Made by a program: the position numbers and the translations under genes. Under the pieces are notes generated by a model. It saw nothing but the letters and a program-made list of their open reading frames with translations, was not told the DNA's origin and did no database searches. A stretch of DNA of 64,000 nt from Micromonospora rhizosphaerae (lineage in GTDB: Bacteria; Actinomycetota; Actinomycetes; Mycobacteriales; Micromonosporaceae): contig NZ_FMHV01000002.1 in the NCBI RefSeq assembly GCF_900091465.1, positions 2,914,001 to 2,978,000 of the forward strand, given 5' to 3'. Positions 48,994 through 60,879 of this stretch are shown piece by piece; within the stretch, counting starts at the first letter, position 1, and every line of letters starts with the position of its first letter.

Positions 48994-50151
48994 TCAACTG
49001 GCTCTGATCGCCGCCGTGTACTGGTCGATCGACGCGTACCCGTTGCACGAGCAGTACGCCTCCGGTGCCCGCACCCAGAGGAAGGCCGTCATCTCCCACC
49101 GCCTGGCCTGAGTCACCGCCCTCCTCATCGCCTCCGGACCGTCCCGCCCACTGTTCTCGCCGATGACCGGCAGGCGGCGGCTCCGCGCCAGGGTGGCGAG
49201 CCGATGGACGGCATCCGCGTTGTCCACCCAGGTCGCCCCGACCGCGACCCCGCTGTCCGGCAGGGCCGATATCTGCGCCGCGTGGTCGTAGCCGCGCTGA
49301 AGGTCACCGCTGCGCTGCGCGGCCGTGTTCCCGCAGAGGTCGTCCTTGACGGCCGCCTCGATGTCCCGGCTACTGATTCCCCACGACGGGTAGAGGACCG
49401 CGATCGTGCCTGGGTACCAGCGCCGTACGGAGTCGATCTGCCAGCGTTGGAAGGCCAGCAACGACGCCAGGTACCAATCCAGGAACCGTCGGGCCTCGTC
49501 ATGACGGCTCGGGGTACACGGGCGCCACCGCGGCACCGGGTTGCCGGGGACCGCCAGCCGGCCGAAGGCCCAGTAGTCGTTGCTGCTGCGGCCCTGCCGG
49601 CGCGCCGGTGCCGGGTAGCTCAGCTCCCCGTTCGGCCCGCCCCCGACGCGCACGGCGTAGAACTCGGTACCCAACTCCGCGAACACCCGCGCGGTGTACC
49701 GTTCGGCCAGCGGGCGCAGCCCCAGCCCGAAGACCAGGTCGGCCACGTCATGGCCGACGTACTGGCTCCCGTGCTGGTTGGTGAAGCGCGCACCCGGCCT
49801 GGCCAGGATCCACGTCGGAGCGTGCTGCAGCCCGAAGTTGAGCACCACCTTGAAGCCTGCTGCCCGGAGCCGGTCGCCCCGGGCGCGCATCGCCGACAGG
49901 TACCTCTCGTCGAACCGGCCGTCGGCGGGCTCCGCGGCCGCCCACGACATCTCCAGCAGGACGACGTCGATGCCGCGGTCGCGCAGCGTCCGCAGATCGA
50001 CCCCGTCGTACGGGCCGATGAGGCCCCACAACGGGGTCGTGCCGTTGTCGGACCCGCCCCGGCCGCACCCCACCACGCCGAGCAGTGCCGTCACCACGAG
50101 CAGTGCGATGAGGGCGCGGTGCCGGCCGCGCCGGGACCGAGGACGCGTCAC
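48994..50151 (-). CDS. Lipoprotein with glycoside-hydrolase-like TIM barrel
   Basis: About 385 residues from a GTG at 50151. Residues 1-29 form a lipoprotein signal (basic head, ALIALLVVTALLGVVGC). The mature protein begins LWGLIGPYDGVDLRTLRDRGIDVVLLEMSW, then AEPADGRFDERYLSAMRARGDRL, the opening of a clan-A (beta-galactosidase-like) barrel in which a strand-helix repeat is entered by WxxxEP-like elements. FKVVLNFGLQHAPTWI and VLYPSWGISSRDIEAAV follow. A catalytic Glu pair cannot be assigned with confidence; GPNGEL and VIGENSG are candidates. It probably trims or edits the polysaccharide made by this operon at the outer membrane face. The start overlaps the kinase stop by 4 bases. Last gene of the operon. 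Confidence 0.78.
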   Translation of the reverse strand: MTRPRSRRGRHRALIALLVVTALLGVVGCGRGGSDNGTTPLWGLIGPYDGVDLRTLRDRGIDVVLLEMSWAAAEPADGRFDERYLSAMRARGDRLRAAGFKVVLNFGLQHAPTWILARPGARFTNQHGSQYVGHDVADLVFGLGLRPLAERYTARVFAELGTEFYAVRVGGGPNGELSYPAPARRQGRSSNDYWAFGRLAVPGNPVPRWRPCTPSRHDEARRFLDWYLASLLAFQRWQIDSVRRWYPGTIAVLYPSWGISSRDIEAAVKDDLCGNTAAQRSGDLQRGYDHAAQISALPDSGVAVGATWVDNADAVHRLATLARSRRLPVIGENSGRDGPEAMRRAVTQARRWEMTAFLWVRAPEAYCSCNGYASIDQYTAAIRAS

Positions 50152-50990
50152 GTCTCGCCCGACCGCGGGACGTCGTCGCCCGAACCGGGTTGGCCACCGG
50201 CGCCCGAGAGGTCCCGCGGCTCCCACCCGGGGACCGTCGCCGGCTCCCGGTGCGGCGCAGCGTGCCGTACCCCCGACAGCACCGTGCGCCGCAGGTCGAC
50301 AGCGATCGAGCCGGGTGTCCGGGCCGCCGTGTCGGTCACCAGGACCCGGTTGCCGAGAGCGTCGGCCAGGCATGCCCAGCGCCGGTACAACAGTCGCCAG
50401 TGCTCAAGTTCCTCCGGCGTGTGTTCGCCGTCCCGTCGTGCCAACAGCTCCGCCGGCGCGTCCAGGAGCACGAGGATGTCGTACCTGGAGGTGAGCCGCA
50501 GATAGCGCCGGGCCAGCGACGAGCCGGGTGGCGGATCGTGCTTGGCCAGCCCGTCGAGCGGACCGCGGTCGGTCATCACCACCGCCGACCTCGTCAGCCG
50601 TGCCGTGCAACGCAGCGCGGCGAGCCGGACCGCGAGCTCCGCGGCGTCGATGTGTCCGTGCAGGCGACGAGCGAGCCGCAGCAGACGCCCGCGCCACGTC
50701 GGGGGCTCGGTGGTCGAGGAGAGCCGATCAGCGGCCCGGCCGTTCGACACGGCCCCGGCGGCGGCCCCCGCGATCCCGGACGGCTGATCAAACCGCCGAC
50801 AGAGCAGGCAGCCGTATCCGTAACCGCGGCGCACGGCGAAGCCGCTCTCGGCGAGATTCCCCCACAGCTCACGTACGAGGCTGCTCTTGCCGGCCCCGTC
50901 CGGGCCGCAGAAGCCGATGACGATCCGCCGGCCACCTACCGGCCGCGCCGGGCGAGGCGTTCGGGGCGTCAGGCGAGCGCGAGCCGGCAT
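50148..50990 (-). CDS. P-loop kinase-like protein (thymidylate-kinase-like fold)
   Basis: About 280 residues. Walker A is GPDGAGKSSL (residues 29-38), preceded by RRIVIGFC. The body has SAVVMTDRGPLDGLAKHDPPPG, where DRGPLD fits the DR-x motif region of nucleotide kinases. RYDILVLLDAPAELLARRDGEHTPEELEHW is the lid region with paired Arg residues (LARRDGEHTPEE). It thus looks like a small-molecule or nucleotide kinase rather than a protein kinase. The substrate is unknown. Thymidylate-kinase-like proteins occur in other exopolysaccharide operons next to nucleotidyltransferase-like proteins, as here. The ATG at 50990 lies inside the 3' end of the previous gene (22-base overlap). The ribosome site is weak, so coupling to upstream translation is likely. 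Confidence 0.78.
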   Translation of the reverse strand: MPARARLTPRTPRPARPVGGRRIVIGFCGPDGAGKSSLVRELWGNLAESGFAVRRGYGYGCLLCRRFDQPSGIAGAAAGAVSNGRAADRLSSTTEPPTWRGRLLRLARRLHGHIDAAELAVRLAALRCTARLTRSAVVMTDRGPLDGLAKHDPPPGSSLARRYLRLTSRYDILVLLDAPAELLARRDGEHTPEELEHWRLLYRRWACLADALGNRVLVTDTAARTPGSIAVDLRRTVLSGVRHAAPHREPATVPGWEPRDLSGAGGQPGSGDDVPRSGET

Positions 50991-51877
50991 CGTTTCACCA
51001 TGGTCAACGGCCCGCGCAGCACGACCTCGCGTCTCGCGGCCGCGCCCTGCCCGGTACGCGCGAGGTGACGGACGTGTTCCCGGGCCACCGCGATCGACGC
51101 GGACGCCGGGAGCGGTACCGGGAGGGGCAGCGGGTCCCCGTCGTCGAGGCGGCGGATCGCCTGGCGGGCGGTTCGCAGTGCGGCGGTGAAGGCTCCTCGC
51201 CAGCCCTCGCGCTGCGCCTCCTCCTCGGCCTCGGCGACCGTCTCCGGTCGGAGCAGTGAGCGGATCGCCATCAGCTCGGACAGGTCGAAGGCGAGGTTCT
51301 GGAACACCGCGTGCGCGAGCCAGATGCGCAGCTGGTCGTCCGGGCTGGGCACCAGCCACCCCGCGGCGGCCTCCCCGGCGTCCGCGACCAGCCGATCGGC
51401 GGCGACGACGGGGATGCCGAACCAGGAGACCGTCCGGTGCAGATGCGCCGCCGGTCCGCGGGCCGGATGGAGCAGCAGCTTGTCCGGTTCGAGGGAGTGG
51501 GCGCTGGTGCGGACGTACCAACCCGCCAGTGCGTCGCGGGCGGCCTCCCACTGGTCGCCGACCACGAGGTCGAAGTTCGTGTAGACGTAGTCGCCGTCCG
51601 GATCGGCCTTGATCAGTACGGGTCGGACCCCGGCGTCGCGCAGCCGGGCGGTTGCCACCGCGAGGTTGTACCGGAACTGCCCGGTCGCTTCCTCCACGGA
51701 CCGCAGCAGACCGGACAACCGATCGGGGCAGGCCCGCGCCAGCAGGCCCTGCACCTGGTTCCGTTCCGCCTCGCGCAGGGCCAGCGCCAGCAGGTCGTCG
51801 CCGATGCGCCCGCCCTCGCCCCGCCAGACGGCCGCCGTCACGGCGGCCGTCGCCAATCGCCGTCTCCTGGCGTTCAC
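50969..51877 (-). CDS. Nucleotidyltransferase-fold-like protein of unknown substrate
   Basis: 302 residues. RLRDAGVRPVLIKADPDGDYVYTNFDLVVGDQWEAA (cited as VRPVLIKADPDGDY, NFDLVV) resembles the LKG...DIDLLV core of the NTP_transf_5-type nucleotidyltransferase-like family. The usual Asp pair is shifted to N-F-D, and no clear GS motif is present, so it could be inactive or use a changed site. The flanking alpha-helical regions (RNQVQGLLARACPDRL and RTVSWFGIPVVAADRLV) also resemble that family. The GTG at 51877 overlaps the previous stop by 4 bases, and its own end overlaps the kinase start by 22. Pairing with the kinase in one operon suggests the two act on the same molecule; this is inference. 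Confidence 0.55.
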   Translation of the reverse strand: MNARRRRLATAAVTAAVWRGEGGRIGDDLLALALREAERNQVQGLLARACPDRLSGLLRSVEEATGQFRYNLAVATARLRDAGVRPVLIKADPDGDYVYTNFDLVVGDQWEAARDALAGWYVRTSAHSLEPDKLLLHPARGPAAHLHRTVSWFGIPVVAADRLVADAGEAAAGWLVPSPDDQLRIWLAHAVFQNLAFDLSELMAIRSLLRPETVAEAEEEAQREGWRGAFTAALRTARQAIRRLDDGDPLPLPVPLPASASIAVAREHVRHLARTGQGAAARREVVLRGPLTMVKRCRLALA

Positions 51878-53076
51878 CGTCGCTCACCTCTCTCGAACAC
51901 GACCATCGGTTCCCGGCCGGGCGCCGACCGCCCGACCGGCGGTGACCCCGCGCCGGCGCGCGGGGCGCCGCCGGGGCCACGATCCAGCAGTTCGCGGTAG
52001 ACCTCGCGGTAGCGGCGGGCCACGGCCGCCTCGCTGAACTTCCGCTCGACGAGCTGGCGGCCGGCGAGTGCGCGATGCCGCCAGACGCCGTCGTCGGTCA
52101 GGATCTCGTCGATCGCACGGGCGGTGGCACCGGCCTCGGGCCGGACCCGGGCGACGGCCGGGTCCAGCACCGCCAGGGAGGGCAGGTCGGAGGCGACGAC
52201 GGGTCGGCCCGCCGCCATCGCCTCCAGCAACACCAGCGGGATGTCCGCCTTGCCGGCGAGGGTGGCCGCCGGGAGGACGACCACCGTGGCGGACCGGACG
52301 AGCGCCGGCATGTCGGCGACGTGCCCCCGTACGTCGATGCGGTCGACGCCCAGGGACTCCGCGTGCCGGCGCAACCGCTCGGCGAGCTTCGCCTCGTCCT
52401 GGCCGGGCCGGCTCCGCATGGCCAGGACCAGGCGCCCTCGGTCACGCATCGCGGAGGCAGCGAAGGCTGCCACGGCGATCTCCGCGCCGCCACCGTTGTC
52501 GTAATGGCCGGCGAAGAGCACGACGGGCTCACCTGTGGGCCGCGGCGCCACCCGCCACCGGTGCAGAGGCAGGCTGGGGGGCACGACCCGGACGTCCGGG
52601 AACCCGGCGGCCCGCAGTGCCCGGGCCGACTGCTGGGAGAGCACGACCGTGGTGCCCAGGTGTGGCACCGGGCCCGGACCGGCCGACAGGCCCGACGGGT
52701 CGACCACCCCGGGCGCGGTGTGCAGGACCGGTCGGCCGAGACGCGCCGCGGCCGAGCCGAGACACCGGGCGAGCAGGGGAAAGCCCGAGCCGATCGTGAC
52801 CACGGCGTGCACCAGGTCGACGAGGGGGAGCGCCCCCAGGGCGAACGCGGCGACCTGGGCGCTCACCAGCGGTCCGGGCCGGCCCGTCCGGGACAGCACG
52901 GGAACCTGGCGGCCGGGAACGTCCCGGTTCGCGCCGACCCGGCGTACCGAGAGGAACCGGTACTCCGGCAGCATGCGCGCCACCACCTCGGCGAGATGCT
53001 TGTCGGCGCTGTCCCACGGCGCCGACAGCGGATGGCTGGTGACCAGGGCCACCCGCGGAACTGGCCGGTTCATCAT
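51874..53076 (-). CDS. Glycosyltransferase, GT4-like
   Basis: About 400 residues. The N-terminus RVALVTSHPLSAPWDSADKHL and the mid-region LVHAVVTIGSGFPLLARCLGSAAARLG (shown as VVTIGSGFPLLAR) form the acceptor half. The donor half has VVLFAGHYDNGGGAEIAVAAF, DRIDVRGHVADMPALVRSATVVVLP, and a donor-site block with ADIPLVLLEAMAAGRPVVASDLPSL. In the last block LEAMAAGRPVVASD is normal for GT4, whereas the first Glu of E-x7-E appears as Asp (KADIPLVLLE). The ATG at 53076 is preferred; ATG 53073 and a GTG-type extension to 53100 are alternatives. The end overlaps the following gene by 4 bases. It adds a sugar to the operon's repeat unit; specificity unknown. Confidence 0.86.
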   Translation of the reverse strand: MMNRPVPRVALVTSHPLSAPWDSADKHLAEVVARMLPEYRFLSVRRVGANRDVPGRQVPVLSRTGRPGPLVSAQVAAFALGALPLVDLVHAVVTIGSGFPLLARCLGSAAARLGRPVLHTAPGVVDPSGLSAGPGPVPHLGTTVVLSQQSARALRAAGFPDVRVVPPSLPLHRWRVAPRPTGEPVVLFAGHYDNGGGAEIAVAAFAASAMRDRGRLVLAMRSRPGQDEAKLAERLRRHAESLGVDRIDVRGHVADMPALVRSATVVVLPAATLAGKADIPLVLLEAMAAGRPVVASDLPSLAVLDPAVARVRPEAGATARAIDEILTDDGVWRHRALAGRQLVERKFSEAAVARRYREVYRELLDRGPGGAPRAGAGSPPVGRSAPGREPMVVFERGERR

Positions 53077-53083
53077 CGCCGCG

Positions 53084-53752
53084 TCACCGCCCGCCCACAC
53101 GGGTTCCGGGCGTCGCGCGCCCGGGCCCGGCCAACACCTGGTTCAAGGCCCTCAGCGCGTCCCACTGGCCGGCGCTCAGGTGCCGCTTGTCCGCCGCCGG
53201 CAGCGTGCCCGTCACGGCGTCCAGCGACTCACCCCGCAGCATCAGCAGCATCAGGCCGGTCGTGACGGCCCGTCCGCCGCCGACGTCGTCGTGCACGAGG
53301 ACGACGGCCGAGCCGTTTTCGTAGCGCCGGACGAAGCTGGCGAGCGTCGCCAGATCCGCGGTCGTCGGAGCCTCCCCGACAGCCAGCGGAAGTCCGAGAA
53401 AGTCCAGACCGAAGCTGGCCGCGATGTCCGACTCGGCGCCGGACGCGTGGCGCAGGTTGACGATCGCCCGTACGTGGTAGGAGTCGCGAAGCAGTCGCAG
53501 CTGGAAGTCGTCCGGTTGGCCGCCGCGCAGGACATGCGGCGTGACGCGCGCGACGCCGGGCAGCGGCGGCAGCGGCTCCCGCTCGCCCCGTCCGGCGGCC
53601 TTGAGCCCTAGCGCCCCGCCGGCCAGCACCGCAAAGGTGACCAGCACCAGCAGGCGGGCAGCGAGCGCTCGGCCCCGGACGAGGTGCCCGGGCCCGACAG
53701 CCGCGGGAAGCGGGGGGCGAAACCAGGTGGCGAGCTGAGTCGGCCAGTTCAC
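53084..53752 (-). CDS. Membrane-anchored tyrosine-phosphatase-like protein with Asp in place of catalytic Cys
   Basis: 222 residues. One membrane segment lies near 33-50. The remainder has the dual-specificity-phosphatase layout: VTPHVLRGGQPDDFQLRLLRDSYHVRAIVNLR (cited as RGGQPDDFQL and VRAIVNLRHASG), then the P-loop position at 154-161 as HDDVGGGRA. In active enzymes this is H-C-x5-R: here Cys is Asp (155), while His and Arg161 are kept and no thiol remains. It cannot use the usual cysteine mechanism and is best read as a pseudophosphatase that binds a phosphorylated ligand, or an enzyme with another chemistry. The GTG at 53752 overlaps the upstream glycosyltransferase stop by 4 bases; its stop lies 7 bases before the next start. 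Confidence 0.78.
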   Translation of the reverse strand: MNWPTQLATWFRPPLPAAVGPGHLVRGRALAARLLVLVTFAVLAGGALGLKAAGRGEREPLPPLPGVARVTPHVLRGGQPDDFQLRLLRDSYHVRAIVNLRHASGAESDIAASFGLDFLGLPLAVGEAPTTADLATLASFVRRYENGSAVVLVHDDVGGGRAVTTGLMLLMLRGESLDAVTGTLPAADKRHLSAGQWDALRALNQVLAGPGRATPGTRVGGR

Positions 53753-54888
53753 GCCATAACCTCCTCGACCGCGTGGCCGGCCACTCTTCTGAGCAGGTTC
53801 AGCGTGGCCATGGACGAGGTCTGCCAGGAGGTCCGGTCCGCCGCGGCGCGCCCCGCCCGGCGCAGCCGGTCGGCGAGCGAGGGGTCCGCCAGGACCCGCT
53901 CCATCGCCTCGCACCAGGCCACCGGGTTCCCCGCTGGCGCGATCAGCGCGGCACCGCCGCCCGCCTCGACGACCGCGGGGGCGTCGCTTGCCACCACCGG
54001 CACGCCCGCCGCCATCGCCTCCAGCACGGGTAGCCCGAAGCCTTCGATGAGACTCGGGAACGCGAAGAGGTCGGCGTGGCGGTACAACTGGACCAGGCGT
54101 TGCTCGCTCACCCGGGGCAACCACAACAGCCTCCGCTGGAGGCCCAGCCGGGACGCCAGTTCCGGGACGGGATCTGGGAACCGTTTGTCGGACTCTCCGA
54201 CGAGGACCAACGTCACGTCCGCGCACCGCTGGCTCAGCAGGTGGAACGCCCGCAGCAGGGTCGCGTGGTCCTTGTGCGGGCGCCGCACGCCGACGTGCAG
54301 GATGTACCGCGACGGGAGGTTCGCCGGCCGCGGCGTCCGGTCGTCCGCACCGATGCGGAACTGGTCACCCACGGCGTGCGGCATGACGTTCTCCTCGTCG
54401 ATCGCGAGGCCGTAGTGGCGCCGCAGGTCCCGGCGGCTGGCGTGGGAAATCGTCGCGACGGCGTCTGCCCTGGCCAGCGCCATCCGGGTGGCCAGCCGGT
54501 ACAACTGGCGCATCCGCAGGCTCGGTGCGAATGCCGGCTCGGTCTCGAAGATGCAGTCGTGTACGACGGTGACGACCGGCACCCGCCCGTGCAGCCAGGG
54601 GACCGCGAGGTGGTAGGGCGCGAACACGACGTCGGGACGCCACTGCCGGAGCAGCCGCACCCACCAGGCCTGTCCCGACAGGGACACCACGGGCGCGCCC
54701 ACCGGGACCAGCCAGACGTCCGGGCGTGCACCCAGTTCCCACGCGGTGAGGCGCCCGGGCGGCTCGGCCGCCAGGACCACCAGCTCCACGTCGGTGGAGA
54801 CCGGTAGCGCCCGGAACAGTTCGAGGGTGTGCCGTCCGATGCCGTGATAGCGGTCCGCGATGACGCGTCCGTCCACCAGAACTCTCAT
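53749..54888 (-). CDS. Glycosyltransferase, GT4-like (mannosyltransferase-type)
   Basis: 379 residues. The N-terminus MRVLVDGRVIADRYHGIGRHTLELFRALP (cited as VLVDGRVIADRYHGIGRHT) is the usual GT4 glycine-rich opening. VVTVVHDCIFETEPAFAPS and DAVATISHASRRDL are acceptor-side blocks. The donor half contains SRYILHVGVRRPHKDHATLLRAF, and FPSLIEGFGLPVLEAMAAG gives an intact E-x7-E (EGFGLPVLE). It matches mannosyl- or fucosyltransferases of many exopolysaccharide loci. The ATG at 54888 overlaps the fusion protein's stop as ATGA, and its own stop overlaps the pseudophosphatase start. Both junctions imply translational coupling. The transferred sugar is not determinable. Confidence 0.92.
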   Translation of the reverse strand: MRVLVDGRVIADRYHGIGRHTLELFRALPVSTDVELVVLAAEPPGRLTAWELGARPDVWLVPVGAPVVSLSGQAWWVRLLRQWRPDVVFAPYHLAVPWLHGRVPVVTVVHDCIFETEPAFAPSLRMRQLYRLATRMALARADAVATISHASRRDLRRHYGLAIDEENVMPHAVGDQFRIGADDRTPRPANLPSRYILHVGVRRPHKDHATLLRAFHLLSQRCADVTLVLVGESDKRFPDPVPELASRLGLQRRLLWLPRVSEQRLVQLYRHADLFAFPSLIEGFGLPVLEAMAAGVPVVASDAPAVVEAGGGAALIAPAGNPVAWCEAMERVLADPSLADRLRRAGRAAADRTSWQTSSMATLNLLRRVAGHAVEEVMA

Positions 54889-57800
54889 GACGCCGGTCCT
54901 TTCGATGTGTCAGGCGTCCACACGGAGGCGGGAGAGGGGCGTACGGTTCTGCGGGGCAGCCGCCGCGGGCGGGCCAGGACCGCGCTCACCGCGAGATGGG
55001 CCAGGAGTAGTCCGGCGAGTGACGTGATCAGGGGCGCCACCGTGCTGGGCAGCCGGGCCTGTGGCGCAGCCGGCAGGGGCGGAGGGGCCTGCGGCTGAGC
55101 GGCTGATGCCGGCACGACGTGCCGGGCCTCGTCCAGTGCCCGGCCGACCGGTGCCAGCCGCACCACGTCGGCAGCGACGGCCGGCCGCTCGAAGATCACC
55201 GCCGAGAACGCCTGCCGGACGGCCCCGTCCGGCATGGTGGTGGCGGGGCCCAACGGCGATCCCAGGTGGTCCAGAGCGCGTGCCACATCGGAGTCCGTCG
55301 CCTCCGCCAGCGGCACGCCGAGATACGCGCGGGCGATCCGTACGTCGTTCAGGTGCCCCAGCACCTGACTCGTCGGAGGTCGCGCCGTGTCCGGGTAGCG
55401 GATCGGGGGCAGCTGGTACCGCCGGTACGTGGCGGGGTGTTGGGTGGCGAGACCCGCCACTGCGGGAACGGAACGGACGGCCGGTAGTCGTCCGGGTGCC
55501 CGCGGCGAGCTCTCCATGAGCACGCCGTTGAACGCCTGATACGCCCGATCACCCTGCCGCCAGGGACGGCTGATCGGCGCGCCGACGACGCTCTTGCCAC
55601 CGAGGGCCCCGAACTCGCGGAGGAACAGGCCGTCCGCGTCGTCCTTGACCGAGAAGCCCCCGCAGCGGGAACCCACGGTGTGCACGAACACGCCACCGTG
55701 GATCGGCTCGAGGTCGGCGGATTGCTCGTACTGGTCGGGTTTCACCTCCCACAGCTGGACACCGTGGTGGGTGTTGCTGGCGTAGGTGGCCACCGGATGG
55801 CCGTTGCTGCGGATCCAGTCCGCCAGGTCAGGGGACATCCGCCCGTAGCCGGAAATCGCGTCCTTGGGATTGAGGAAGAAGAAGTGGACGCCGTGGGCGA
55901 GCGCTCCCGGCCCGCTGCCGAACCGCGTGACCGTCTGGCCTTGCAGGGAGTAGACGTACTTCTGGACGTCGCCGCTGGTGTTGAAGGTGGCACAGGCCGG
56001 GAAGTGCGTGTCGACGAAGCCGGACATCTGTTCGATGCCGTTGTTGTGGCTGCGGGCGTACTGGGATCCCCAGCTGAGGAGCGCGGTGACCGGCAGCAGG
56101 GCGGCGAGTCCGACGGCGAGGCCGCCGGCCAGCAGCGTGCCCATCGCCGGCAGGAAGCTCGTGCGGGCTCGGGACAGCAGCGCGGTGAGCAGCGCGTCGA
56201 GTCCCAGGAGGGCGCCGATGATCGCCGCCGGCACGATGTACACGAAGAACTGCTCGTTCAGCGTGCCCTGGACCAGGATGTACGCCGCGAACGTGTAGCT
56301 GCAGCCGAGGAACGCCAGGAGGTAGGTGGCGGCCTCGTTGTTGCGTCGGAGGAACAACCAGACCAGGGCGACCGCGCCCAGCGCGAGGAGCAGATAGGTG
56401 CTCAGATACTGCGGGGCGGAACGGGTCACGGCCGCGGTGAACGAGACGCCGGGGCGGTTCCACCCGGTGACCTGGAGCAGACCGAGCAGGCGCTGCAGCG
56501 TGAAGAGCTTGACCTCCCAGAACCGGCCCGACGCGCCGAGCAGGGCGGCCCACAGCGGGAACGCCAGCCAGAAGGTGCAACCGATGGCCAGGGAGCCGGC
56601 GGCTCGCCTCAGGTAGCGTCGCTCGGACGCGAGGGCTCCGAAGACGACCGGGGACAGCAGCAGGAAGACCGAGATCTCCTTGACGAGCAGCGTCATGCCG
56701 GTCAGGAGTCCGACCACGAGGAGGTGGCGGCGGGTACTCCAGTGGCGGGCACGCCACGAGACGAGAATCGTGACCAGACAACCCAGCAGCGCCAGCGGCT
56801 CGATCATCGCCAGCCTGCTGTAGCGCAGCAGGACCGGGTCGGTCGCGGCCACGACCACCACCGCGGCGACGAGCAGCAGGCGCCGGCCCCGCCGCACGGT
56901 CGGAGTCACCGCGAGACAGAGCAGTCCGAGCAGGACGACGTCCACGGCGCCCGCGGTGGCCGTGATCAGCCGAGCGGCGTGGATGGCGTCGAACAGCGGG
57001 GCGTCGCCGAGGCCGAGCAGTTTCAGCCAGGCCGACTGCAGGAGGAAGTACAGCGGTGGGTGTACGAACACCGGCTCGGTGGACCAGGTGAGCTCCCCGG
57101 TCGTTGCCACCTGCTGCGCTGCGCGGGTGTAGACCACCTCGTCGTACTGGGTGTCCGGACTGGTCGTGATGTTGGCCGTGAACAGCAATCCGGTCAGCGC
57201 GAGCAGGGCCAGCATGAGCGCTGCCGGAAGACGGGCTCTTCGCCACCCGTACCTGCCCCACCCGGTGCGAAGCGCTCGGACGGTGGCGGTGGCGATGGGC
57301 GGCATGGCCCCGACCGGAAGCAGCCGGGCCTTATCCGCCAGGCCCCGCAGCCGCGAGACGTCCGCCGACGTGATCAGGTTGAGCGACCGGGCCACCCCGA
57401 GGTACGCCAGGCCGGCCACCGTGACGAGTCCGAGGGTCAGGACCGCCGGCGCCTGCGGTGTCACGGCCAGGCCGCCGAGCAGCGCCAGCAGCGCGGCGGC
57501 GTAGCGGGCCGCCCGGTCTCTCCCGGGCAATCCGATCCGCTGATGCCGGTGGTATGTCAGCGCGAGCAGCAGCGCTCCGGTCCAGCCGGCGAGGGCGAAC
57601 GCGATCGCCGCTCCCATGGCCGCCAGCCGGGGCACCAGGACCGCCAGGACCGTGAATTCGACGACCAGCACGGCCGGCATCACCGTCGCGACCGCTCCGC
57701 GCCGTCCCAGCGCCTGCAGACTCTTTCCGTAGATCCCGCAGCCGATCATCCCTAGTGCGCCCAGCGACACCACCTGGATGAGCGGGAGCACCGCCTGGTA

Positions 57801-58796
57801 CGCCGCCGGAAAGAACAACTGCAGGAACGGTTGCGGCCGTACCACCAGGACCAGTTCGATGGGGACGACCGCGAGGAAGATCCACCGGGCCGCGGCGCTG
57901 AACCACCGGTGGGAGGACTCCGGTGAGTCGTGCCTCCGGGCGATGAACGGGAAGACCGCGTCGACGAGGGCGTCGGCGACGAAGTACGGGGCCCGGCCGA
58001 GCAGGACCGCGACCTGGTACATCGCCACCGTGGTGGCGGTGAGGCCGGAGGCGTACCCGATACTGTGCAGTCCGAGCACGTCGGCGGTGGCGAACAGGGC
58101 GAAACCCGCGCTCCCGACGAACATCGGGAGGGTGCTGCGGTAGGTGCTGATCCCGGCCAGACGTCCGCCGCGCAGCGGCAGGTCGTCGCGTAGTCGCCAG
58201 GCGCCCAGTACGGCCGCGACCAGGCTGCCGGCCAGGAAGGCGCAGGCCACGGCGGCGGCGCCGAGGTTGAGCGCAACGACCAGGACCACCGCGACCAGAC
58301 ATTTGACGAGCACTTCCGCGACCTGGACGAGCCCGAAGGCGCTGAAGCGACGCCGGCCGTGCAGCGCCCCCTTGAACACGGCGTTGACCGCGAAGATCGG
58401 GAAGGAGGCGGCCACCATCGCCACCATCAGCAGTGATTCCGGCGGTAGCAGTCGGACGCCGGCCGCCTGGAGAAAGACGAAGCCGAAAGCGAGCGCCAGG
58501 CCGAAGGCGGTGTTGCCGAGCAGGGAACTTCGGAAGACCGCCCCGGCGTAGCCGGGATCGATGCGCCCCCGCCGGGCCTCGGTCGTGGCCACGATCCACG
58601 GGAATCCGGAATTGACCGTGTAGGCCGCGAGAAGCAGCGCGGCCTGCACGGTGCTGACCTGGCCGTACTCCTCGTCGGACAGCAGCCAGGCGAGGACGAT
58701 GCCCAGGGCGTAGTTCAGCAGGGCGATGACCGCGAAACGGGCCACCAGCAGCACCCCGCCCTTGGCGGCCGTCTCATCACGTGTGGCGACCGACAC
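54885..58796 (-). CDS. Flippase / GT39-like glycosyltransferase fusion with exported C-terminal domain
   Basis: 1303 residues in one uninterrupted frame. Residues 10-475 are a Wzx/MOP-type flippase (RFAVIALLNYALGIVLAWLLS then DEEYGQVSTVQAAL; about 12-14 helices). Residues 523-905 form a second polytopic part resembling ArnT/PMT-type (GT39/GT83-like) transferases: after the first helix comes YDEVVYTRAAQQV (551-563), with the acidic pair expected for catalysis, then VHPPLYFLLQSAWLKLLG and RYSRLAMIEPLAL. Residues 910-1245 are soluble and probably exported, with two related LGFP-like units (LREFGALGGKSVVGAPIS...AYQAFNGVLMES, and ALDHLGSPLGPA...RQAFSAVIFE). A last helix is at 1251-1275. The GTG at 58796 directly follows the upstream TAG. 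Its frame has no stop or composition break at the joins, so it is not a sequencing artefact on the face of it. Confidence 0.88.
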   Translation of the reverse strand: MSVATRDETAAKGGVLLVARFAVIALLNYALGIVLAWLLSDEEYGQVSTVQAALLLAAYTVNSGFPWIVATTEARRGRIDPGYAGAVFRSSLLGNTAFGLALAFGFVFLQAAGVRLLPPESLLMVAMVAASFPIFAVNAVFKGALHGRRRFSAFGLVQVAEVLVKCLVAVVLVVALNLGAAAVACAFLAGSLVAAVLGAWRLRDDLPLRGGRLAGISTYRSTLPMFVGSAGFALFATADVLGLHSIGYASGLTATTVAMYQVAVLLGRAPYFVADALVDAVFPFIARRHDSPESSHRWFSAAARWIFLAVVPIELVLVVRPQPFLQLFFPAAYQAVLPLIQVVSLGALGMIGCGIYGKSLQALGRRGAVATVMPAVLVVEFTVLAVLVPRLAAMGAAIAFALAGWTGALLLALTYHRHQRIGLPGRDRAARYAAALLALLGGLAVTPQAPAVLTLGLVTVAGLAYLGVARSLNLITSADVSRLRGLADKARLLPVGAMPPIATATVRALRTGWGRYGWRRARLPAALMLALLALTGLLFTANITTSPDTQYDEVVYTRAAQQVATTGELTWSTEPVFVHPPLYFLLQSAWLKLLGLGDAPLFDAIHAARLITATAGAVDVVLLGLLCLAVTPTVRRGRRLLLVAAVVVVAATDPVLLRYSRLAMIEPLALLGCLVTILVSWRARHWSTRRHLLVVGLLTGMTLLVKEISVFLLLSPVVFGALASERRYLRRAAGSLAIGCTFWLAFPLWAALLGASGRFWEVKLFTLQRLLGLLQVTGWNRPGVSFTAAVTRSAPQYLSTYLLLALGAVALVWLFLRRNNEAATYLLAFLGCSYTFAAYILVQGTLNEQFFVYIVPAAIIGALLGLDALLTALLSRARTSFLPAMGTLLAGGLAVGLAALLPVTALLSWGSQYARSHNNGIEQMSGFVDTHFPACATFNTSGDVQKYVYSLQGQTVTRFGSGPGALAHGVHFFFLNPKDAISGYGRMSPDLADWIRSNGHPVATYASNTHHGVQLWEVKPDQYEQSADLEPIHGGVFVHTVGSRCGGFSVKDDADGLFLREFGALGGKSVVGAPISRPWRQGDRAYQAFNGVLMESSPRAPGRLPAVRSVPAVAGLATQHPATYRRYQLPPIRYPDTARPPTSQVLGHLNDVRIARAYLGVPLAEATDSDVARALDHLGSPLGPATTMPDGAVRQAFSAVIFERPAVAADVVRLAPVGRALDEARHVVPASAAQPQAPPPLPAAPQARLPSTVAPLITSLAGLLLAHLAVSAVLARPRRLPRRTVRPSPASVWTPDTSKGPAS

Positions 58797-60323
58797 CTAG
58801 TGCCCCGTGGGGTCGGACGCCACCTCGCGGGAGTGACTGCTCGTGTCGGCGAGTTCCCCCCGCCGATCCGAGGACAACAGCCCGACCAGTCGTTCCAGGT
58901 CGTACGGGGTGAAGGCCCTTTCCTCGGTGCTGGCCAACGACAAGTTCAGCACCCCGGTCATGCCGGCGCGACACGAGAACGGGACGGACATCGCGCTGCC
59001 GATGCCGGCGAGCGTCATCAAGTCCGTGAGGTCGGAGTCCGAAGTGGTCGGATCGAGCAACTGGGGGCGACCCGCGGTCCAGGTGCGCTGCGCGAGCCGG
59101 CGCTCCGGCAACGTCGCCGATCCCCACGCGACGGCGACCCGAGGCACGTGTCCCCGGCGGAACAGGAGCAGCGACGCGGAGCTCGCCTTGAAGTCCTCTA
59201 CCAGGCCGGTCAGCGTGAGCCGCCCGCTGGCCCACGGCGTCGGCAGCGCTCTTGGCTGCCTTGCCTGCCAGGCTTCGACCGTTTTGACGAACGCCTGCTC
59301 GTAGCGCTCCACCACCCGGCTCCAGCCCATCCGGCGCGCCGCCTCCTGTGAGACCTGTTGGAGGTGGTGCAGGCGAGCGGGATCGGCGGAGAGGGACAGC
59401 AAGGCTCGGCGGAGGGCGTGCGGGTCGCGTGGGGGGACCACGAAGCCCGTGGGGGAGGCGACGTCCCGCACCCCGGGAAGGTCGGACGCGACGGGGACGC
59501 AGCCGGCCGCCATTCCCTCGAGCAGCACCAGACCGAAGGCCTCGGCCCTGGTCGTCGACGGCAGGACGACGACATCGTGGGCGCGGTAATGAGCCTGCAG
59601 CTCCTCGTCGCTGACCCGGCCGGTGAAGGTCGCGTTGGTTGCGCCCGCCGCGCGAGCCCGGGCGCGGTACTGGTCGAGGAGGGGGCCCGACCCGACGAGG
59701 GTCACGCTGAGCGCCGGCTGCCCGGCCACGGCCCTGAGCAGGGTGTCGACTCCCTTGTACGGACGCATCTGGCCGACGAAGAGGACCTTCAGCGGCCCGG
59801 TCTTCGGGAGTGGACGCGGGAGGGAACTGTCCGCGCCGTCGACCCCCCACGGCACCACCTCCACGGTGGGCCCGAGCGGTCTGGCAAGAAGGTCCCGGTA
59901 CGCGCGGGAGGTGACGATGATGCGGTCCGCCGTGCGAGCCAGCCCCTCGTGCACCCGGTTGTAGACGGCGCACGCCGCCCGCACGCCGCTGATCTCGATG
60001 GCGCTGTGGTGCGTGTAGACGATCTGCGGCCGCCGCCTTCCCGGGGACAGGCGGTTGAGCAGCAGGAAGACGTCGCTCATGGTGGGCGCCGGCCCGTGCA
60101 GGTTGACGATGTCGTACTGGGACAGTCGTCGGGCGATCCGGGGCCAGAACAGCCCGAAGGAGCTGATCCGGATCTCGCCCAGCACCATGCGCGGGATGTC
60201 CATGGCCGAGATGACGTCGACCAGGTGCCCACGCGACTGCAGGCCCTGGGTGAGCCGGTCGATGCAGCGGGAGATGCCCGAAACGATGGGTGGCGCTTCT
60301 GACACCAGGATGAGGATGCGCAC
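58797..60323 (-). CDS. GT4 glycosyltransferase fused to a C-terminal GAF-like domain
   Basis: 508 residues. Residues 1-355 are a complete GT4 enzyme: RILILVSEAPPIVSGISRC at the N-terminus, NLHGPAPTMSD, TADRIIVTSRAYRDLL, LKVLFVGQMRPYKGVDTLL (179 onward) and an intact EAFGLVLLE at 261-269. Residues 365-485 are unlike a glycosyltransferase and match a GAF domain: LTLTGLVEDFKASSASLLLF, AWGSATLPERRLAQRTWTAGRPQLLDPTT (cited as RRLAQRTWTAGRP), GSAMSVPFSCRAGMTGVLNLS and FTPYDLERLVGLLS. GAF domains bind small molecules or other proteins, so activity may be ligand-controlled. The GTG at 60323 has AGAGG 7-8 bases upstream. First gene of an operon running to 48994; the next gene starts immediately after its TAG. 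Confidence 0.86.
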   Translation of the reverse strand: MRILILVSEAPPIVSGISRCIDRLTQGLQSRGHLVDVISAMDIPRMVLGEIRISSFGLFWPRIARRLSQYDIVNLHGPAPTMSDVFLLLNRLSPGRRRPQIVYTHHSAIEISGVRAACAVYNRVHEGLARTADRIIVTSRAYRDLLARPLGPTVEVVPWGVDGADSSLPRPLPKTGPLKVLFVGQMRPYKGVDTLLRAVAGQPALSVTLVGSGPLLDQYRARARAAGATNATFTGRVSDEELQAHYRAHDVVVLPSTTRAEAFGLVLLEGMAAGCVPVASDLPGVRDVASPTGFVVPPRDPHALRRALLSLSADPARLHHLQQVSQEAARRMGWSRVVERYEQAFVKTVEAWQARQPRALPTPWASGRLTLTGLVEDFKASSASLLLFRRGHVPRVAVAWGSATLPERRLAQRTWTAGRPQLLDPTTSDSDLTDLMTLAGIGSAMSVPFSCRAGMTGVLNLSLASTEERAFTPYDLERLVGLLSSDRRGELADTSSHSREVASDPTGH

Positions 60324-60879
60324 AGGTACCTCTACAAACTCTCGCGGTCGGAGTGCCGGGGCGCTGGCGAACGGTCGTGCGGACAAAGCACGGGGAGGCT
60401 GCGCGGCGCAGGTCACGCAGGGCGCAGCGCCACCGTCCGCGGATGCGATGAGAAGGAGTGCGACCCTGCCGGCTGGTCGACGCGCGGCCGACCGGGCGGG
60501 CGTGCGGAGCGGGGGAGGAGATTGGACTACGTCCGCCGCTCGGCCTGTCCGGGGCTCGGCGAACCGGGCGCGCCTCGTGGAGCGCGGCGACCGCCGCGGT
60601 CCGTGTCCGACTCAGGTGGACGAGCGCTCGGGGTTGCCCGATACATCACGATTAGACCTCGACGTTCACTCGATCACTGGATGCTTTCGCTTGCCAGCGC
60701 GCCACCTGGGTCCGTGGACCGGGCCATGCGAAGAGTCATGGCGGCGGTGCGTACAGTGAACGAGAGTAGCGAGGGAAAACCCCCTAATGAGGGCGAACCG
60801 GGAAAACCGAATCCCGTGTCGGGCGTGTCCGGCGGGCGGGTGCGGTTGCGCCGCTCACCCGCCCGGCGGTGACGCCCGG
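60324..60879. promoter_or_regulatory. Upstream region of the second polysaccharide operon
   Basis: About 556 bases lie between the operon's first gene and the 3' end of the helicase gene. It must hold the operon promoter; the stretch 60640-60690 and 60745-60810 is less GC-rich. Several open frames cross it, but none has a recognisable motif. A hairpin near its left end serves the helicase gene. Confidence 0.5.
60833..60865. terminator. Hairpin downstream of the DUF3516 helicase gene
   Basis: CGGGCGGGTG (60833-60842) and CACCCGCCCG (60856-60865) form a perfect 10-bp stem with a 13-base loop, 15 bases past the stop of the minus-strand helicase gene. Confidence 0.65.

Follow-up and report, generated by a model that had tools for sequence, protein, structure and literature searches.

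A recurrent fusion of a Wzx/MurJ-type flippase with a GT-C transferase in an actinobacterial glycosyltransferase cluster

Introduction

A stretch of 64,000 nucleotides of Micromonospora rhizosphaerae (assembly GCF_900091465.1, contig NZ_FMHV01000002.1, positions 2,914,001 to 2,978,000; hereafter the window, in whose numbering all positions are given) carries one gene whose product joins a predicted flippase of the MOP superfamily to a predicted GT-C membrane transferase and a further C-terminal region. Both families are well known, and the interest lies in the recurrent flippase-GT-C fusion and in its split relatives, which form a useful set for comparison. Lipid transport or modification is joined to another step within one chain in MprF, MviN/Rv3910 and the Lnt-Ppm fusion; to our knowledge, none of these combines a Wzx/MurJ flippase with a GT-C transferase. 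In open-access PubMed Central, none of the titles and abstracts among the matches listed describes such a fusion, and the text of PMC3412221 contains 'flippase fused' once. Direct cargo handover by Wzx-type flippases is hard to test because the contact may be transient, and covalent joining by evolution, apparently more than once, provides together with the split relatives matched pairs for testing coupling, while the fusion gives a defined partner for the GT-C enzyme in Micromonospora, Actinoplanes and Pseudonocardia.

Results

The fusion gene occupies 54885..58796 on the minus strand, with a GTG start at 58796 and a TGA stop ending at 54885, and encodes 1303 amino acids. The original prediction, made from the sequence of the window, had placed a 1303-codon frame at exactly these positions and was silent on the strand; a plus-strand reading of the same interval is interrupted by stops and was rejected. 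The G+C content at third codon positions (GC3) is 88.8% overall and 84.8-91.1% across the three parts tested, a pattern typical of coding throughout. The start abuts the TAG stop (58799-58797) of the upstream gene, and the last four nucleotides are the first four of the next gene (ATGA overlap), the fusion gene sitting in a tightly packed operon-like run with GT4 glycosyltransferase genes on either side. That the frame is an artefact of assembly or annotation is exceedingly improbable, given 31 other fusion representatives, the fused gene of a named genome (L007) and the continuous frame with coding GC3; assembly error, in a host assembly of 7.18 Mb in 3 contigs, was rejected for practical purposes because the same fusion is found elsewhere.

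The flippase half spans residues ~9-483 (57348..58772, minus strand) by structure model and fold matches, and has the MOP fold, Wzx/MurJ-like, over the full domain, in agreement with the MOP-type flippase first proposed at residues ~10-475; its helices, counted from the predicted model, fit about 14 transmembrane segments. Searched alone against Pfam, this half matches PF13440 (38.0 bits, cutoff 23) and PF01943 (34.6 bits, cutoff 28.2), while the whole 1303-residue protein gives no Pfam family at E<=0.1, and the single NCBIfam match of the fusion protein is to an O-glycosylation flippase (residues 8-91, E 7.9e-4, 18.5 bits, cutoff 720). Identity to the Wzx (WzxE) and MurJ structures among the matches listed is ~12-16%, and in contrast with these flippases the fusion protein continues C-terminally into a second membrane enzyme. 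By its predicted fold, the flippase half would move a lipid-linked glycan across the membrane.

Between the halves lies a variable basic linker, probably cytosolic (residues 476-519, 57240..57371, minus strand; 8 K+R, 2 D+E), modelled partly at low confidence, which contains a candidate internal start, an ATG at residue 498 (position 57305) with a weak G-run upstream. Wzx/MurJ flippases have both ends in the cytosol and GT-C enzymes have a cytosolic N-terminus, which together with the basic linker makes the joined topology coherent, with both halves sharing one membrane and the active site and C-terminal region lying outside.

The GT-C half was delimited at residues ~513-920 (56037..57260, minus strand) by structural matches and alignment. 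The GT-C membrane fold, on whose presence the original prediction had staked its reading of the second half, is found there, with fold matches covering ~513-920; both folds were modelled confidently (predicted local distance difference test, pLDDT, 86.9 and 91.2), with high structural matches for each. Many GT-C matches end near model residue 516, which is protein residue 1020, and since they run that far, the small alpha/beta domain at residues ~932-1021 (55734..56003, minus strand), probably outside the cell, is part of the transferase. An acidic pair in the first outer loop of GT-C enzymes is catalytic, and the first-loop Asp-Glu noticed at 552-553 is correct: Asp552-Glu553, His579, Asp653, Arg658, Arg661, Asn847 and Glu848 are identical in all 41 aligned rows.

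As to the family of the transferase, the earlier description as ArnT/PMT-like and GT39-like is a fair one in so far as the nearest structures are those of the oligosaccharyltransferase, ALG12, ArnT and PMT group. The GT-C half alone gave no useful Pfam match (best DUF6107, E 1.6; GT87, E 9.6), and no ArnT row stands among the structural matches listed for model 1, which excludes nothing. Neither the whole protein nor alignment A1, each searched at E<=1 against the sequences of solved structures, returned a match; alignment A4 (E<=10) returned 6 presenilin sequences only, at E 0.41-0.99, which were taken as chance. AglB/STT3/PglB, ALG12, ArnT and PMT have in common with this protein the fold, including the small soluble domain that follows the membrane portion, and the first-loop acidic pair, whereas this protein has an additional region of ~230 residues before a closing helix, and the flippase fusion. 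The modelled fold suggests that the GT-C half transfers a sugar from a polyprenyl-linked donor. It might instead act as a ligase akin to oligosaccharyltransferases, transferring the flipped glycan en bloc to a wall polymer or protein, with the flippase supplying the donor; we regard this as unlikely. Against it, the Z differences between the structural matches are small, ALG12, a monosaccharide transferase, scores 24.3, and the Pfam family that is matched by 18 of the 41 rows at E<=0.01 (this protein not among them) is PMT_2.

The C-terminal part consists of a soluble region, probably outside the cell (residues ~1022-1248, 55053..55733, minus strand), and a closing helix at residues ~1254-1275 (54972..55037, minus strand). 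The helix had been anticipated, as had two LGFP-like units, of which a weak likeness stood, by Pfam in relatives and by Foldseek, but no LGFP match in the protein's own sequence. Pfam LGFP is matched by 1 of 41 rows (E 0.0038), and the relative P0038 gives E 0.011 and 16.5 bits where the cutoff is 22. For this protein, two C-terminal pieces have no match to Pfam LGFP at E<=10, nor has its C-terminal part any match to sequences of solved structures at E<=10. Foldseek pairs the model with 6swz, the C-terminal domain of mycoloyltransferase A (MytA), at E 0.0099 and probability 0.98, with template modelling scores of 0.10/0.30 and a root-mean-square deviation of 17.7 over 251 columns, a poor superposition, in which region 1022-1248 formed part of a longer model. 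A crude dot-plot of the outer region showed no convincing pair of internal repeats, the LGFP-like pair (1071, 1178) scoring 11 and unrelated pairs 13. In PMC11299179, the LGFP units of MytA are described as interacting with peptidoglycan-arabinogalactan. MytA has five units, whereas about two are suspected here, where the Foldseek likeness is weak and the Pfam score lies below the cutoff. By this distant analogy, the C-terminal region may hold the product or a peptidoglycan or other wall polymer. The fused protein of L007 is without most of the outer region (no match extends past residue 88 of the C-terminal query) and distant GT-C relatives show no match past ~residue 1030; therefore, region 1022-1248 lies outside the core. 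Two cysteines, Cys935 and Cys1045, are invariant in all 41 rows and could form a disulfide outside the cell.

Homologues with the same domain order, a search for which the original prediction had proposed, were found in number. The 8000 best candidates were scored at a threshold of E<=1e-5, which left 59 proteins, namely this one, 31 other fusions (P0003-P0033; 1233-1543 amino acids, 39-74% identity, homology along the whole chain and both halves in alignment A1) and 27 proteins of 727-1026 amino acids with the GT-C and outer parts only. Six further fusions (P0061-P0066), outside alignment A1, have 76-95% of the query covered; by eye, P0066 ends in another frame, and P0067 (876 amino acids), which enters no fusion count, is a shortened relative. 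Some representatives stand for many member sequences (29 for P0025), and automatic annotation gives a double name to 3 of the 31 other fusions (P0005, P0006 and P0013). Two metagenome proteins showed other features: P0010, a relative of the fusion, has helix-hairpin-helix matches (Pfam HHH_3), and P0068 has a flippase followed in one chain by an apparent nucleotidyltransferase-like region (Pfam NTP_transf_5, E 0.084, not significant).

In a survey of named genomes, which is no census, 20 stretches matched one of two peptide patterns and 10 were confirmed (L007-L016). The two halves are fused in L007 (Actinoplanes sp. TFC3, 1078 amino acids), are encoded by separate adjoining genes in 8 of the 10 loci (L008-L015, from Pseudonocardia, Actinoplanes and Paractinoplanes), and lie ~3.6 kb apart in one cluster in L016 (Actinomycetospora). 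Taking the GT-C start codon nearest the flippase stop, the adjoining genes overlap by 4 nucleotides in L009, L010, L013 and L014 and by 8 in L008, L011 and L015, with a 2-nucleotide gap in L012. The fusion is thus real and recurrent, the named genome L007 included.

A tree of 33 fused and 32 split rows (65 in all) was built by a quick method with no bootstrap, and seven long branches in it, L007 and L016 among them, were flagged; the split label of most metagenome rows comes from protein length alone, gene context having been seen for the named loci only. The states need 7 changes, at least 5 of them forced by starred branches, whereas shuffled labels need 22 on average, and one well-supported clade holds 15 fused rows. 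The divergence of one half correlates with that of the other: r is 0.949 across 42 taxa, a value that none of 1000 permutations reached, and 0.845 when only the nine split loci are taken. The fusion could also have arisen by convenience, operon neighbours having been joined by small deletions or frameshifts while performing separate steps of one pathway with no direct handover: genes whose ends overlap are easily fused, the tree shows fused forms alternating with split ones, and the linker is variable (22 to 129 residues between positions 475 and 531 across 33 fusions) and poorly conserved (mean 0.32, against 0.63-0.64 in the flippase and GT-C halves). Against this, repeated fusion in one order and the persistence of fused clades, such as that of 15 rows, suggest a benefit, and we consider the explanation by convenience rather doubtful, yet the most credible of the alternatives.

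The neighbouring genes all lie on the minus strand. Upstream, a GT4 glycosyltransferase gene (58797..60416) has its stop against the fusion start; its product weakly matches GAF at the C-terminus (GAF_2, E 6.6e-4, below cutoff), and relatives in L019 and L020 align across the GAF-like region too. Downstream follow a second GT4 glycosyltransferase gene (53749..54888, overlapping the fusion end by 4 nucleotides), a DSP/PTP-like protein with an N-terminal hydrophobic stretch (53084..53752, below the Pfam cutoff, start chosen by eye), a third GT4 glycosyltransferase (51874..53100), a P-loop kinase-like protein (50148..51053, weak AAA_28 below cutoff, start uncertain) and a GH42-like protein, probably exported (48994..50142, Pfam borderline at 21.1 bits against 21, start uncertain).

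Compared at E<=1e-8 with the 10 named loci, the flippase, the GT-C enzyme and the GH42-like protein are present in all, the GH42-like gene standing upstream rather than downstream in L007. A relative of the upstream GT4 (at least 49% identity over at least 346 residues) occurs in 8 loci, while L011 has fragments and L015 nothing of that level. In 5 loci the downstream GT4 has a relative (at least 40% identity), and the PTP-like protein occurs in 9, or in all 10 at E<=1e-4. The PTP-loop Cys is catalytic, and in the protein of the window and in all 10 loci the loop has HD instead of HC; with Asp in place of Cys the domain is probably a pseudo-enzyme, making the DSP/PTP-like protein a probable conserved pseudo-phosphatase of the cluster. 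A PTP-like domain is itself fused to the GT-C C-terminus in 8 of 67 proteins scanned (phmmer, E<=0.01), all without the flippase half (P0042, P0044, P0045, P0050, P0053, P0055, P0059 and P0060); P0022 and P0027 seemed by eye to bear such a tail, which phmmer at the same threshold did not find in them.

The cluster was likely gained horizontally. At E<=0.001, none of 60 sampled congeners has a match; in the family 2 of 60 other genomes have one (flippase-like only in one of them), and in the order 8 of 60 others. The three samples overlap, and none of their matches contains both halves in a single frame. In the fusion gene GC3 stands at 88.8%, and in two helicase genes of the window, a small control, at 97%; one of these two adjoins the cluster and the other lies ~11 kb past its opposite end. 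The neighbouring DUF3516 helicase shares 94% identity with its counterpart in Micromonospora sp. WMMD712. A mobile-element boundary was looked for only by tRNA genes, of which none was found in the window.

Discussion

Based on these findings, we propose that the fusion protein works as a flip-and-transfer unit in an accessory pathway for surface glycans, which is the best explanation and, in our judgement, a reasonably probable one. First, the cytosolic GT4 enzymes of the operon would assemble a short glycan on a polyprenyl carrier, which the N-terminal Wzx/MurJ-type half, by its predicted fold, would flip to the outer leaflet. Then the GT-C half, held by the short, basic linker, would take this lipid-linked glycan as a substrate on the outside of the membrane: it could either extend it by one more sugar, drawn from a polyprenyl-phosphate donor, or pass it on to an acceptor in the envelope. 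The soluble C-terminal region outside would perhaps help to hold a wall polymer. Joining two translationally coupled neighbours would keep the pair stoichiometric and close, the fused and split states having apparently switched repeatedly. As relatives often encode the halves as neighbouring genes, the two very probably work together, and the most economical reading of the sequences is that the flipped lipid-linked glycan is the substrate of the GT-C half; repeated fusion and fission, overlapping genes and correlated divergence lend indirect support to a coupling of flipping with sugar transfer.

Several observations weigh against this proposal. The predicted template modelling score of the model is 0.57 and mean pLDDT falls to 37-49 in blocks 491-520, so that the relative placement of the halves is not determined, and internal initiation at the linker ATG is possible by its sequence. 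Common ancestry and a common operon alone would raise the correlation between the halves, and splitting is tolerated and common, so the fusion is not required. The halves of L016 differ in nearest relative (L011 for the flippase, P0017 for the GT-C enzyme), and both GT4 neighbours lie on the opposite strand in L009, L010, L013 and L014. Therefore, the operon is not kept everywhere, and the argument from co-inheritance is slightly weakened.

A stronger form of coupling would be a flippase-oligosaccharyltransferase chimera, wherein the flippase cavity would hand the lipid-linked glycan straight to the GT-C active site of the same molecule, which would transfer it onto a wall polymer gripped by the C-terminal domain, export and ligation being one step; we consider it quite improbable.

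Beside the proposed flip-and-transfer unit, another arrangement of the same families exists in more distant relatives, and it too speaks for the proposal. In G061, G088 and G172 the GT-C gene precedes the flippase gene, the reverse of the order found here, and in G061 and G088 the flippase beside the GT-C gene is itself fused to a GT4 domain; these fusions too join a MOP flippase to a glycosyltransferase, but the partner is a GT4 enzyme, not an outer-face GT-C. In L018 (1456-3996) and L026 (289-2826), a MOP flippase and GT4 fusion of ~846 amino acids begins one base after the GT-C gene.
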